Assembly (NCBI GenBank): GCA_028688835.1
Contig: JAQTXL010000003.1
Span: 1-44,010 of the forward strand
Length of the DNA: 44,010 nucleotides
Direction: 5' to 3'
From: Candidatus Nanopelagicales bacterium
Lineage (GTDB): Bacteria > Actinomycetota > Actinomycetes > S36-B12
Of this stretch, positions 20,740 through 28,327 are shown in pieces. Every line of letters starts with the position of its first letter. Positions within the stretch are counted from its first letter, which is position 1. The position numbers and the translations under genes were made by a program. Under the pieces are notes generated by a model. The model was given only the letters and a program-made list of their open reading frames with translations, was not told where the DNA came from and ran no database searches.

Positions 20740-21036
20740 TCAGGCGACTGCCTTGGGCTTGAGTTGGACCGTAAGCGTGGTGTCGAAGGCGCTGGCGATG
20801 CGCTGGAGGATCGGCAGAGTCGGCGTCGTGCCGCCGGCCTCAAAACGAGCAATCGCGGGCTGCGTCATGCCGGTCAGCTTTGCCAGGTCGCGTTGACTCC
20901 AACCGCGCCCCTCGCGCAGGCCACGAACCTGCTCCCCAAGCTCGAACGCGAGCTTGGCCGCGGCATACGCGGCCTCAACCGCCGAGTCGCCCGCGCGAGC
21001 GGCCTGCAAGTCTTCCCATGACGTGCGTGCCATCAC
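20740..21036 (-). CDS. HigA-like XRE-family antitoxin
   Basis: A 98-residue helix-turn-helix protein. An N-terminal helix (ARTSWEDLQAARAG) that probably covers the toxin is followed by an XRE domain: VRGLREGRGWSQRDLAKLTGMTQPAIARFEAG, positions about 38-69. Its start (GTG 21036 or ATG 21033, with GAGGAGGAG before it) overlaps the toxin stop, giving the toxin-first order typical of higBA. It should bind its own promoter, probably at the inverted repeat 21378-21393. It lies directly against repeat copy 2. Confidence 0.85.
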   Translation of the reverse strand: MMARTSWEDLQAARAGDSAVEAAYAAAKLAFELGEQVRGLREGRGWSQRDLAKLTGMTQPAIARFEAGGTTPTLPILQRIASAFDTTLTVQLKPKAVA

Positions 21037-21365
21037 TCCTCCTCATCCACAAAGTGCTCGGCCTGCATGCAAGCGAGCAACGACCTCTTCGCCCGCACCA
21101 CCTGTGCCCGATCCCTGTCCTTAGTCTTCGCGAAGACCGTCAGCAGGATGATCCGCCGCCCTGGGGCGATCCAGTGGGTGATCCGGATCGCCTGTCGACC
21201 CAGGTCGAACCGAGGCTCCCGCAGCTTGCCGTCCAGTTGCTTGGTGTACGGCTCGGCGAGCAGGACACCTCGCTCGGCCAGGAGGTCGACGTAGAACGCC
21301 GCATGACCGAACTCATTGCCCGCGAGCCCCTCGCGCCAGTCCCGGACTTCAGGCTCAAGTTCCAC
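21033..21365 (-). CDS. HigB-like RelE-superfamily toxin (Gp49-like)
   Basis: A 110-residue protein of the phage-derived Gp49/HigB group (PF05973 type): an N-terminal VRDWREGL helix, DLLAERGVLLAEPYTKQLDGKLREPRFD, and the core strand RITHWIAPGRRIILLTVFAKT, then a basic helix (RDRAQVVRAKRSL). Family toxins cleave mRNA on the ribosome. The first codon is GTG 21365, twelve bases after a TGGTAT -10 candidate. Paired with the XRE antitoxin gene downstream. Confidence 0.85.
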   Translation of the reverse strand: MELEPEVRDWREGLAGNEFGHAAFYVDLLAERGVLLAEPYTKQLDGKLREPRFDLGRQAIRITHWIAPGRRIILLTVFAKTKDRDRAQVVRAKRSLLACMQAEHFVDEEE

Positions 21366-22511: not shown

Positions 22512-23567
22512 CTAGCCCGGGACGGTCGCTGCGCGCTCGATAGCAGCGGCTAGCGCCAAGGTGTCGTTGGGCCCGTTCCATTTCACGACGCTGACCGTGC
22601 CGTCGTTCGCGAGCGGGAGAGGCACGTCGATCGGCATTGCCATAACTAACGGCACCGAGCCATGCGCCATGTGATTGCGTAGTAGGCGTGCGATGCCAAC
22701 GGCCGCTCGCGCCGCCTCCGGCCGACCAGCGTACTTGACCTCAATATCGACCCGCCTTCCCTTCAAGTCGACGGTCGCGTCAAAGCCTGTATCGCCAGAC
22801 TTTGTTGCGGGCGTCACATTGATACCCATTCCTCTCAGACCCGAAAGCGCGCTGAGGACCTCGGCCTCGTATGCCCGTGCTTTACCGCCGGAACGGTCTC
22901 GGGCCACTCCACTCGGCCGGGAGCTCGGCGCAGATGGATCCACCGCGCCCGGCGATTCCTCGGTGTCTGCCATTCGAGTGCGGAGTTCATCCAGCATGCC
23001 CTTCCATGCTGATCCCTGGACGTCATCGGTTGCTGTGTCGGCCAAGCGCTCCAGGATGCTGACTGCCACAGCGTCCGGGAACGGTTGCTGGCGCGTGTCT
23101 GGCGGGAAGGCACGGTCCGAGAACCATTCAAATCTGCCCCACCACTTGTCCGCTGCCGCGGCCAGCCGCTGGTGCTCCAACAGTTGTCGTGAAACGCGCA
23201 CTTGATTCGAGATGCCGACGAACGCGATGACTGCCGCGATGACCGCCGCGAGACCCGCAGCGCCCGGGCTACGAACAAATTCGCCGAGCCACGTCCGAAC
23301 GTTTCCCTCCCGAGCGGCGCCGATCCAGATTGCTATGCCTGCTCCGACGAATAGGCTGGCGATCGCCCCGAGGATAGCTACCCACAGGGGCGGCCGCCAT
23401 CGCTGACGGGCGGCTGAGCTCACGGCACGTCTACCTTGTCCGACGGGCGCACGAAGCGCAGAATCATGGGTCGCCGCAGATCCCTCAAGTGTCCCCCGTA
23501 GCGCTCGTAGCGAATCGCAGCGTAGCGCCGCAGCGCTGGTCCGCGAACAGAACTTGCTGGAGGTCAT
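22512..23567 (-). CDS. Membrane-anchored PD-(D/E)XK nuclease-like protein
   Basis: Up to 351 residues. Two hydrophobic segments (about 62-82 and 101-118) are followed by a helical linker and a C-terminal restriction-endonuclease-like domain: YEAEVLSALSGLRGMG, then GDTGFDATVDL with D263 and DIEVKY with E276 and K278, the D-x12-ExK core of Mrr-type nucleases. The domain should face the cytoplasm and could cut DNA at the membrane. The N-terminal 48 codons lack features; a GTG at 23423 just before the first helix is an alternative start. It is co-transcribed with the YaaC-like gene and divergent from the GHKL-nuclease gene. The family is not one I can name. Confidence 0.7.
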   Translation of the reverse strand: MTSSKFCSRTSAAALRCDSLRALRGTLEGSAATHDSALRAPVGQGRRAVSSAARQRWRPPLWVAILGAIASLFVGAGIAIWIGAAREGNVRTWLGEFVRSPGAAGLAAVIAAVIAFVGISNQVRVSRQLLEHQRLAAAADKWWGRFEWFSDRAFPPDTRQQPFPDAVAVSILERLADTATDDVQGSAWKGMLDELRTRMADTEESPGAVDPSAPSSRPSGVARDRSGGKARAYEAEVLSALSGLRGMGINVTPATKSGDTGFDATVDLKGRRVDIEVKYAGRPEAARAAVGIARLLRNHMAHGSVPLVMAMPIDVPLPLANDGTVSVVKWNGPNDTLALAAAIERAATVPG

Positions 23568-23693: not shown

Positions 23694-25673
23694 ATGCCGC
23701 AGATCCGTCTCACCGCAGGCGACCCGCTCGTCGCTCGGCTCGCTCACGAGAGCAACCCCGTCAAGGCCGTGATCGAACTCATCTGGAACAGTTTTGACGC
23801 CGACGCAGATCAGGTTGCCGTCGAGCTCGACCGCAACGATGCCGGCGGCATCGAGGGGGTCACGATCATCGACGACGGCCACGGCATCCCAGCCGAGGCG
23901 ATCGAGGCGACATTCCGAGAAGTCGGTGAGTCCTGGAAGCGGGGCGCGACTCAGACACACGGGAAGGGCCGCCCGCTGCACGGAAAGATGGGTGAGGGGC
24001 GCCTGCGCGCTCTCGCCCTTGGAGAACGGTTCGACTGGAACACGACGGCGGTCTGCACCGACGGCGTGACGAGGTGGGTTCTCGTTTCGGGAACCGTAGA
24101 CTCGCGAAGCGACTGGTGGTACTCGGAGCCCACTGAGACCCATGCTGCGACGGGAACCACGTTTCGCGCGACCGGACGCCAAGGACTCGACCGCCTAGAG
24201 AGCGCCGCTACGGTGCAGCAGCTTGTAGCCACGTTCGCGCCGTATCTGATCGCACAGCCCTCGATCGAACTCACGTATGACGGCACCAAGCTGGATCCCT
24301 TGGAGCACCGCTCTCGGGACAAGGACGTGCCAATCACGTGGACGTTCGAAGGAACGTCTCACTCAGCACTGCTCACCATCATCGAATGGGACAGCGGCTC
24401 AGAACGCTCGCTCCATTTGTGCAACTCGGCGGGAGTCTCGCTCCTTGAGGGCCAGAAGCCTCCGGCGGCTGATTTTCCGTATACGGCATACGTGCGCTGG
24501 GATGGGTTCGACGATGACGCGCACTCGTGGGTGATCGCCGACATGGATCCGGATGCATCCGCGATCGGCGGCCTTCGACAAACAGTGATGCGAGAACTGC
24601 GCGACTACATTGACAGCCGGGAAGCCGAGGATCGACGTGGCCTCGTCCAAGTCTGGATCGACAACGGCACGTTTCCGTATAGCGGGGCTCCCGAGAATCA
24701 GGAGCAACAGCTCGAACGCTCTGCCTTCGAGCTCGTTGCAACAAAGATGCGGCGTTTCATTCCGACGCAGAAGCCGGCGCAGAAGTTGACGCTCGGCCTG
24801 CTGAAATCTCAGTTTCAGGCAAATCCCGGCGACTTGGCTGAACTCCTGCAGCACTGGGCGGGCCTGAACGATACGGACCGCGACGACCTCGATCGCCTGC
24901 TTCGCACTACAGGCTTCTCCGGTGTAATAAGGGCGTCGTCCAACGTGACCAAGCGGATCGCGTTCCTCGCCGCGCTCGAGCAGATGATTTTCGATCCCGA
25001 CATAGCTCCCGAGGTCGGCGAGACGGCGCATCTCCATCGGATCGTCGAGAAGGAACTATGGCTCTTCGGTGAGCAGTTCAACATGATGTTGAGCGAGCGC
25101 GGATTGACTGCTGTGTTAGAGCAACACCGCCGACTGCTTGGCGAGAACGTTATCGTCGGGGACGTAGTTCGCCGCCTTGATGGACGGACGGGACGAATGG
25201 ACCTCGTGCTGTCTGGAACTGCGAGAGAGCCTGGACGCCACCGCCACCTAGTCGTTGAGCTGAAAGCGCCGGACGTCAATGGCGGGCTAACAGAGCTCGC
25301 CCAGATCAAGTCGTATGCGCGCACTGTGACGCACGATCCGCGCTTCTCGAGTACGACAACGATCTGGGACTTCGTTCTAATCGTCCGAGAGATGGATCCC
25401 GAAGTGATCGTGGAGGTAAACCAAGCTCGACGGGAGCCGGGCCTGGCATTCGAGTCGGACGACGCTGGCCATTCAGTGCGGGTCTGGGTGCGTAGGTGGT
25501 CAGATATCATTGCCGAGGCTCGCGAGAAGCTCGATTACATCCAATCGCACTTGAAGTACGACCCATCAGTCGCTGACGCACGGGAGTATCTGAATCTTCA
25601 TCACGCAGAGTTTCTACCTGATGCGCTGCGGGGCACGATTGTCGACGTAGAGCGCCCGGACGAATCTCCTTAG
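23694..25673 (+). CDS. GHKL (Hsp90-like) ATPase with C-terminal PD-(D/E)XK domain
   Basis: A 659-residue protein. Residues 1 to about 200 form a GHKL ATP-binding fold: N-box ELIWNSFDADA (E28, N32), G1 box DDGHGIP (D60-G64) and a lid with HGKMGEG (96-102). The middle is helical and unassigned. Near the C terminus, RMDLVLSG (D503) and VVELKAP (E522, K524) make a D-x18-ExK nuclease core, similar in wording to Shedu/DUF4263-type nucleases. An ATP-driven clamp with its own nuclease fits a DNA-sensing defence protein. ATG 23694 has AAGGA before it; a TTG at 23619 is in frame. No partner methylase is present. Confidence 0.75.
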   Translation: MPQIRLTAGDPLVARLAHESNPVKAVIELIWNSFDADADQVAVELDRNDAGGIEGVTIIDDGHGIPAEAIEATFREVGESWKRGATQTHGKGRPLHGKMGEGRLRALALGERFDWNTTAVCTDGVTRWVLVSGTVDSRSDWWYSEPTETHAATGTTFRATGRQGLDRLESAATVQQLVATFAPYLIAQPSIELTYDGTKLDPLEHRSRDKDVPITWTFEGTSHSALLTIIEWDSGSERSLHLCNSAGVSLLEGQKPPAADFPYTAYVRWDGFDDDAHSWVIADMDPDASAIGGLRQTVMRELRDYIDSREAEDRRGLVQVWIDNGTFPYSGAPENQEQQLERSAFELVATKMRRFIPTQKPAQKLTLGLLKSQFQANPGDLAELLQHWAGLNDTDRDDLDRLLRTTGFSGVIRASSNVTKRIAFLAALEQMIFDPDIAPEVGETAHLHRIVEKELWLFGEQFNMMLSERGLTAVLEQHRRLLGENVIVGDVVRRLDGRTGRMDLVLSGTAREPGRHRHLVVELKAPDVNGGLTELAQIKSYARTVTHDPRFSSTTTIWDFVLIVREMDPEVIVEVNQARREPGLAFESDDAGHSVRVWVRRWSDIIAEAREKLDYIQSHLKYDPSVADAREYLNLHHAEFLPDALRGTIVDVERPDESP

Positions 25674-26879: not shown

Positions 26880-27761
26880 TCACTCTCGCACCGATTTCTC
26901 GATCCGGTCGACGAAGGATTGGACTCGCAGGACAGCTTGCTCGACGTCGGGTGCGAGGACGAGTTCGTCGAGGCCTTCCATGGCCCGAACATATATCGAT
27001 GGCCAATGGGGCAAAGTAACGAGAACCGGCGGCCATTGATGCTTGCTCCGGCCAGCGAAGACCGCGACACACGCGGCACGCGTGTGGTCAAGGGGCTCGT
27101 CAACAAGCAGCGCTTCGAGGAGTTGCAGGTCGACCAGATCGTGTGCTCGATCATTCGCACGTGGCTCATCGACAGTCTCGGTGCAGGCGTGGAGTTTCTG
27201 CGCGACCTGCCAGGGCAACGTCATACACGGGACTGCCCCGCTGTTTGGTAGCCCCACGAGTGCGAGAGCTTCGGAACTGACCTTGTCGTAAGAATCGCCG
27301 TTACCCGCCTCGATCGGAGACACCTCGATCGGGACCGAGACGAAGGACTTGCCCTGGTAATTGATCTTCGCTGTGAATCGGAATGCATCAGAACCCAGCG
27401 CCGGAATCTCGAACGCAACCGGTGGCGTGAACACGGCAGTGAATCCCTCCCACCCTTGTGCACCTGCCTCGGCGAGCAGGTCGTGGACGGTAGCGATATC
27501 GCCACGAATGACTGCGTCAAGGTCCTTGGAGGTTCGAGATGCCGGAATACCGCGCCGCAGTTCGAGGGAGACGCCGCCCTTGACCAGCAGCAGCGGGTCG
27601 CCGTGGTCGTCAGTTAGCGCCGAGAAGAACTGGGTGACGACCAGAACGCCAACGTGCTGTTGGAGGCGACCAAAGACGATTCCCTCGCGCTTCGCAGCAG
27701 CTGCCAGACGATCTCGCAACGCCCGCAGATTCGAAGGGGACGCGTCATAGCGCGACGTCAT
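26880..27761 (-). CDS. abiEii: AbiEii-like nucleotidyltransferase toxin
   Basis: A 293-residue protein of the AbiEii/type IV toxin family. The nucleotidyltransferase core is LLVKGGVSLELRR followed by RTSKDLDAV, where the acidic pair would bind Mg-nucleotide, and the downstream segment QVAQKLHACTE with RANDRAHDLVDLQLL is the second family signature. Such toxins add nucleotides to tRNA 3' ends or otherwise halt growth during phage infection. The start overlaps the antitoxin gene by four bases. The deleted repeat copy lies just beyond its stop. Confidence 0.87.
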   Translation of the reverse strand: MTSRYDASPSNLRALRDRLAAAAKREGIVFGRLQQHVGVLVVTQFFSALTDDHGDPLLLVKGGVSLELRRGIPASRTSKDLDAVIRGDIATVHDLLAEAGAQGWEGFTAVFTPPVAFEIPALGSDAFRFTAKINYQGKSFVSVPIEVSPIEAGNGDSYDKVSSEALALVGLPNSGAVPCMTLPWQVAQKLHACTETVDEPRANDRAHDLVDLQLLEALLVDEPLDHTRAACVAVFAGRSKHQWPPVLVTLPHWPSIYVRAMEGLDELVLAPDVEQAVLRVQSFVDRIEKSVRE

Positions 27762-28327
27762 CTACGTCTCCCACCATTCGTGCCACGCACGTCGATGCGA
27801 GTGCGCAATGCACGTGCTTCGTCCCGCCGCAGATCACCCTGAGCTTCGGCTTGATCGACCGCCAGTCGAAGTTGGTAAGGGTCGGTCCCTCCGGCCAAGC
27901 AGTCTCGGACCGTACGGGCAACTGTGGTGACGGGAATATCGTCGACCTCCGTAACATCGCCCAACGCAAGGTCTCGGCGGTGCAGGCGATACAGCTCGCC
28001 ACCGGCACCGCGAGGGTGATTGGCGCGCGGCACGGTCAGGTGAATGCGCGATGGGTTGACGTCGGATAGTCCGTGCAACACCAGCGCCGACTCGTCGGAG
28101 ACCACGCCCCTGCCCAGCGTCCAGGCAACCGCCTCAGCCAGATCGTCATGCCGGGTGCGCGGCAAGATGGGCACCCGATAGGCACCCCGGCCCACGCGCT
28201 CTAGGCGCCCACGGGCAGCCATCACCCGCAGCTGGGCCGGATCTATGCCAAGCGCTCGGGCATCACGCGTGGTGATGTATCCGTGCTGCTCCACGGCTCG
28301 CTCGAGCACCCGATCCCTCACATTCAT
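27758..28327 (-). CDS. abiEi: AbiEi-like antitoxin
   Basis: A 189-residue AbiEi-type antitoxin. An N-terminal winged helix (ITTRDARALGIDPAQLRVMAARGRLERVGRGAYRVP) leads into the C-terminal domain with SDESALVLHGLSD, IHLTVPR and DIPVTTVARTVRDCL, all family hallmarks. It should repress its own promoter at the inverted repeat just upstream. ATG 28327 lies seven bases from a TACGCT -10 candidate with no ribosome-binding site. It is coupled to the toxin gene (ATGA). Confidence 0.87.
   Translation of the reverse strand: MNVRDRVLERAVEQHGYITTRDARALGIDPAQLRVMAARGRLERVGRGAYRVPILPRTRHDDLAEAVAWTLGRGVVSDESALVLHGLSDVNPSRIHLTVPRANHPRGAGGELYRLHRRDLALGDVTEVDDIPVTTVARTVRDCLAGGTDPYQLRLAVDQAEAQGDLRRDEARALRTRIDVRGTNGGRRR

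Follow-up and report, generated by a model that had tools for sequence, protein, structure and literature searches.

The window analysed here is a 44,010-nucleotide stretch of DNA from Candidatus Nanopelagicales bacterium (assembly GCA_028688835.1, contig JAQTXL010000003.1, positions 1 to 44,010). The forward strand at 23694-25673 carries a single uninterrupted open reading frame of 659 amino acids, which begins with an ATG at 23694 and closes with a stop codon ending at 25673. An AAGGA-like ribosome-binding site lies directly 5' of the start. The protein comprises, in order, a predicted GHKL ATPase, an S5-like domain, a helical middle and a PD-(D/E)XK nuclease, as judged from an alignment of 69 diverse family members (A2) and an AlphaFold2 model of the whole protein (mean pLDDT 87.3) for which the input alignment was built from genome and viral contigs. 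Its surroundings include a RelE-like/HTH pair, a YaaC-like gene and AbiEi/AbiEii. The first of these, a RelE/Gp49-like toxin gene with an HTH antitoxin-like gene, occupies 20740-21365 of the reverse strand; ARAGORN places a 93-base tRNA-His within the HTH frame on the same strand, which is probably a false call. The AbiEi/AbiEii toxin-antitoxin pair at 26880-28327, also on the reverse strand, was matched strongly by PADLOC models (E 7e-67 and 1e-79). A 351-amino-acid gene at 22512-23567 (reverse strand), divergent from the gene under study, has no Pfam match. By eye, its C-terminal half contains D-x-T-V-D...D-I-E-V-K, typical of Mrr-like PD-(D/E)XK proteins, after a probable membrane segment.

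The GHKL/Bergerat domain spans approximately residues 7-187 (23712-24254, forward strand, as are all features of the gene given below). Pfam HATPase_c_3 matches residues 23-145 above its cut-off (E=1.3e-14). The first-pass annotation held that the N, G1 and lid motifs were complete and the positions that it gave were correct: the N-box E28-LIW-N32 (23775-23789), the G1 motif D60-D-G62-H-G64 (23871-23885) and the ATP-lid motif G97-K-M-G100-E-G102 (23982-23999) all have their numbered residues invariant in 69/69 members of A2, together with W31, D35, K82, R93, H96 and R103. When the composition of the protein was shuffled 20,000 times, the ordered triple of motifs appeared twice. Residues 7-320 of the model match MORC3 (Z 19.0, 279 residues aligned; model residues 7-315 for the ATPase domain assignment), and the GHKL and S5 part as a whole resembles the structures of MORC3, TRAP1/Hsp90 and MutL. 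The S5-like transducer region covers approximately residues 188-323 (24255-24662), with a long terminal helix at 290-323 by DSSP of the model, and the MORC3/TRAP1 matches reach model residues ~312-323. The MORC3 and TRAP1/Hsp90 matches thus confirm that the model has the Bergerat fold and, after it, an S5-like transducer. The resemblance to MORC ATPases is one of fold, whereas the MORC-specific GhXhhpXXRhl motif of the S5 domain was found in 0/69 members and the family, unlike the MORCs, has a nuclease domain. No conserved S5 lysine/arginine finger could be identified with confidence in A2, in which the candidates R238, R309 and R342 are basic in 88-97% of members. A phmmer search of the PDB with the single protein returned just weak matches to MutL N-termini and one chance match, and all matches that Foldseek listed for the whole model were to GHKL proteins.

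The helical middle, approximately residues 324-417 (24663-24944), is where model confidence is lowest (pLDDT < 50 at residues 402-414), and it leads into the predicted Shedu-like PD-(D/E)XK domain at residues 418-645 (24945-25628). A D..ExK..Q pattern appeared in 6,617 of 20,000 composition shuffles of the protein, about a third, so that the pattern alone proves nothing and the presence of a nuclease has to be supported independently. Such support comes from conservation and from fold. D503 (25200-25202) and E522-L-K524 (25257-25265), which had been proposed as a complete catalytic set, were correctly placed and D503, E522 and K524 are invariant in 69/69 members. A further residue that had been overlooked, E443 (25020-25022), is equally invariant and aligns with the invariant E484 of a related family linked to restriction-modification (R-M). 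E443 therefore completes the predicted catalytic E-D-ExK tetrad. Y541, W558 and W602 are also invariant in this half, Y541 lying in the Q537-IKS-Y541-A helix (25302-25319) in which Q537 is kept in 67/69. When residues 418-645 were modelled alone (228 residues) the prediction was confident (pLDDT 93.2, pTM 0.90), and the first three ranks of a VIA-align search with this model were all Shedu proteins, namely B. cereus Shedu (8ti9, Z 10.0, rmsd 3.6 over 144 residues) and E. coli SduA, EcSduA (8ps4, Z 9.8; 8ps5, Z 9.6). The conservation of the tetrad and a confident fold whose best solved matches are Shedu together argue that the nuclease is real. The likeness to Shedu-type nucleases that had been suggested from the wording of the sequence is consequently reasonable at the level of the predicted fold, where it is not exclusive since EndoMS (Z 9.3) and the nickase N.BspD6I (Z 9.2) lie within 1 Z of Shedu. 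Foldseek of the nuclease model alone gave no match at E<=0.001, with Shedu absent among the top 50 listed; Pfam applied to the single protein gave for this half only a sub-threshold HSDR_N_2 match, and one member of the family matches Cas4, a RecB-type nuclease. Structure prediction, which had been proposed as a check on the assignment, yielded both a Bergerat fold and a nuclease core, and the invariance of both sets of residues supports the view that two active sites are intact in one polypeptide.

The relationship to Shedu proper is distant. Canonical Shedu, in which DNA ends are sensed and nicked by a homotetrameric nuclease core, resembles the window protein in its predicted nuclease fold and has the same E-D-ExK core (in a Shedu alignment, A5, E239, D282 and K298 are invariant and E296 nearly so) but its N-terminal domain is not GHKL, and the window family falls below the threshold of the Pfam model of the Shedu nuclease. 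This model, SduA_C/DUF4263 (PF14082), matched 0/69 members at E<=0.01 and nothing in the window's own genome, so that 'Shedu' is used here for a structural and distant-profile relationship. Direct hhalign comparison of the family with canonical Shedu gave a weak match (69%, E=4.4e-5, 56 columns) in which the D and ExK residues were nonetheless aligned with each other. A stronger connection was provided by the R-M-linked family mentioned above (alignment A4), a second group of GHKL-nucleases that was found via SduA_C itself, which matched 3/11 of its members. The window family aligns with A4 collinearly over its full length (99.8%, E=8.7e-30, 538 columns) and through its nuclease part alone (E=2.7e-13), and A4 in turn aligns with canonical Shedu (E=3.7e-13). 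As judged from these profiles, the sequence link of the window family to Shedu is indirect, through A4. The two families differ in their setting, since members of A4, found in bacteria and haloarchaea (L139, L187, L189-L193), mostly adjoin C5-methyltransferases and several have Vsr endonucleases, whereas the window family is not so placed and forms a separate clade, the split having 100/100 support in the tree.

The first-pass annotation stated that the usual N-terminal partners of Shedu-type nucleases are not GHKL domains, and two published descriptions speak against this. The pairing was predicted by Iyer, Abhiman and Aravind (2008; PMC2292703), who defined paraMORC3 as a GHKL and S5 module with a C-terminal RE-fold nuclease bearing E-D-ExK, proposed that it drives DNA looping with ATP and recognised a standalone subset lacking conserved neighbours, mainly in Proteobacteria and Bacteroidetes. 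The window family agrees in three respects: an S5 domain follows a GHKL domain whose ATP-binding motifs are conserved, a C-terminal nuclease of predicted PD-(D/E)XK fold carries the tetrad in 69/69 members, and no conserved gene neighbourhood was seen among 249 flanking ORFs. Compared by published description only, paraMORC3 thus has in common with the window protein its architecture, intact GHKL motifs and standalone habit, while the closest relatives of the window protein are actinobacterial. More recently, Adams et al. (2025; PMC12137116) described VcSduA of V. cholerae, a protein with an N-terminal GHKL ATPase and a C-terminal PD-(D/E)xK domain (DUF4263) that blocks Drexlerviridae and vibriophage X29. 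Mutation of either the ATPase (E27A) or the nuclease (K557A) abolished phage defence. These authors predicted an entwined dimer, proposed gating by an ATP clamp and classed the protein as Shedu type I-D, which is present in about 1.2% of genomes. VcSduA, again compared by published description only, is like the window protein a single gene with a GHKL ATPase at the N-terminus and a PD-(D/E)XK nuclease at the C-terminus; it was reported with DUF4263, whereas the model for that domain detects none of the 69 members of the window family. The distance between the E of the ATPase and the K of the nuclease is 530 residues in VcSduA (E27 to K557), 493-521 in the window family and 498-565 in A4. By this spacing, VcSduA falls outside the range of the window family and within that of A4, which tends to set it apart from the former without being decisive. 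Given paraMORC3 and VcSduA, it was already known that a Shedu-like nuclease can have a GHKL partner, the novelty that had been implied for the fusion does not hold and the window protein joins a known architecture.

Homologues of the window protein are widespread. Searches with tblastn recovered full-length homologues, mostly of 28-39% identity, on plasmids of Streptomyces, Rhizobiales, Rhodobacterales and others, and in two Pasteurella phages. Profile scans with the first alignment confirmed 319 stretches in genome contigs and 33 in viral contigs; the scan of viral contigs with the alignment gave 31 loci on viral contigs and that with the single protein gave no matches. The closest relatives in the genome contigs are actinobacterial, the nearest being from Arthrobacter (49% identity), and the family extends through Actinobacteria, Proteobacteria, Cyanobacteria, Planctomycetota and others. 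The annotations of members go no further than 'ATP-binding protein' or 'hypothetical protein'; the PADLOC (2023), NCBIfam and Pfam Shedu models that were run did not identify the family. Matches on Campylobacter plasmids were rejected as members, as the ATPase only was aligned and most of these proteins bear the annotation histidine kinase; one lies beside a response regulator. Several incomplete copies were also seen. On Curtobacterium plasmid pS16 (L020:4959-5732) a nuclease-only ORF of 245 amino acids is 42% identical to residues 400-651, with no GHKL ORF seen just upstream, and may be a partner-less nuclease or a remnant. The member on pRM41A of S. meliloti Rm41 (L025) is interrupted near residue 467 by an IS21-type insertion with both halves retained. 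An actinobacterial copy (L195:991-2199), a 402-amino-acid ORF with the helical region and nuclease and without the ATPase part, is probably a decayed gene.

The distribution is patchy and the genes are mobile and stand alone, in some cases at sites known to carry defence cargo. The window gene is accessory: it was found in 0/8 genomes of the same genus and in 2/195 relatives, and the family in 8/297 genomes of the class, the window's own genome being counted in both of the latter. Carriers include plasmids, prophages and a P4-like satellite. In the flanks of 68 loci (249 nearest ORFs) no neighbour family occurred in more than 2 loci, and there is therefore no obligatory partner for the family. 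The flanking proteins include integrases and the products of unrelated defence genes (GajA, BrxH, type II R-M, SoFic and ShosT). The late region of the Pasteurella phages Pmp14 and Pmp3 carries the member as its single piece of cargo. Among 5,426 E. coli genomes, 11 hold a copy 97.8-97.9% identical to the Salmonella member, all annotated only as 'ATP-binding protein'. In the one of these 11 genomes that was inspected for position, E. coli 19SZHZ713Rt (NZ_CP080070.1 1168005-1169990; L194:15001-16986), a P4-like satellite is inserted at ssrA, and the homologue (WP_021536577.1) is all that separates its psu gene from its integrase gene. The psu-int locus of such satellites has been shown to be a reservoir of anti-phage systems and an antiviral hotspot (Rousset et al., 2022; PMC9122126).

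We propose, with a probability of roughly 0.7, that the window gene is mobile and encodes, on its own, a nuclease that is directed against phages and controlled by an ATP clamp. In favour stand the two invariant active sites, the predicted folds, the profile links to A4 and Shedu, the patchy and mobile occurrence, in part at defence-cargo sites, the defence genes near some members, AbiEi/AbiEii and the RelE-like/HTH pair near the window gene, and the loss of defence when either site of VcSduA is mutated; the spacing in VcSduA and the lack of a confidently placed S5 finger weigh against. That it defends against phage is the part of this proposal that we consider well on the probable side. The N-terminal GHKL and S5 module would dimerise on binding ATP to form a clamp, which may sense foreign or replicating DNA or a DNA structure made by the phage, and closure of the clamp or hydrolysis of ATP would then bring two C-terminal Shedu-like domains into a cutting-competent arrangement on DNA. 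This scheme is drawn by analogy with MutL, MORC and VcSduA: binding of ATP would be expected to close a GHKL dimer around DNA and so to place two nuclease domains. Gating of the nuclease by ATP, as the first-pass annotation had suggested, is plausible and somewhat favoured. We also lean towards the protein cutting phage DNA, with survival of the host, rather than killing the cell.

A different role is suggested by restriction enzymes. The best NCBIfam match of the window protein is BbrUII/HgiDII (NF050001, E=3e-12), its best PADLOC matches are REase_II models, the A4 family adjoins C5-methyltransferases and R-M genes lie near some members of the window family, all of which would fit a type II R-M system in which the protein, a BbrUII/HgiDII-like GHKL enzyme, is the restriction subunit and a partner DNA methyltransferase shields the host. 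The likeness to BbrUII/HgiDII is, however, confined to the ATPase (residues 25-112) and scores 45.9 bits against a cut-off of 550. No methyltransferase domain was found in the scanned genes flanking the window gene, one C5-methylase was present among 102 flanking proteins of the family, no neighbour family is shared by more than 2 loci and the methyltransferase-linked family is cleanly split from this one, so that we regard this explanation as unlikely. We think it equally unlikely that phages are not the main targets and that the protein chiefly attacks plasmids or competing mobile elements. Many of the carriers are themselves plasmids and satellites, and ATPase clamps that act on plasmids, of the Wadjet-like kind, exist. 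The related VcSduA is nevertheless active against phages (PMC12137116) and the psu-int site at which the E. coli copy lies is a hotspot of phage defence (PMC9122126). Recruitment of a MutL-type housekeeping factor to DNA repair outside R-M systems, an idea raised by Iyer et al. (2008; PMC2292703) for some standalone paraMORC3s and in keeping with the similarity of the ATPase to MutL and MORC, is very improbable. A gene that is lacking from all 8 genomes of the same genus and from most of the class, that is carried by phages, satellites and plasmids and whose E. coli version occurs in so few genomes does not behave as a housekeeping gene.

The alternative to which we give most weight, while holding it to be the less likely outcome, is abortive infection, in which the protein on sensing phage would degrade host and phage DNA alike and the cell would die, with no selective cutting of phage DNA. 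Many defence nucleases are suicidal and no target specificity is encoded in the sequence of the window protein. Against this, VcSduA was protective at every multiplicity of infection (MOI) tested, which its authors read as direct restriction with survival of the host (PMC12137116), and DNA ends are the cue for EcSduA, a Shedu protein whose N-terminus is of another kind (PMC12904381).

A further and more tentative possibility, which we rate below an even chance by some way, is that its family is a large sister family of Shedu type I-D that is missed by current defence-annotation models, and that its clamp reads a feature of phage DNA (ends, topology or replication structures) unlike that read by VcSduA or by canonical Shedu. 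Were this so, the family would stand as a class of its own among ATP-gated nucleases directed against phages. The findings would extend GHKL-gated Shedu-like nucleases to a broad family distinct from the proteins detectable by SduA_C, and the intact copy in the E. coli P4-like satellite offers a convenient experimental system in which to ask whether phage defence can involve activation of a nuclease by a clamp of the MORC/MutL type.
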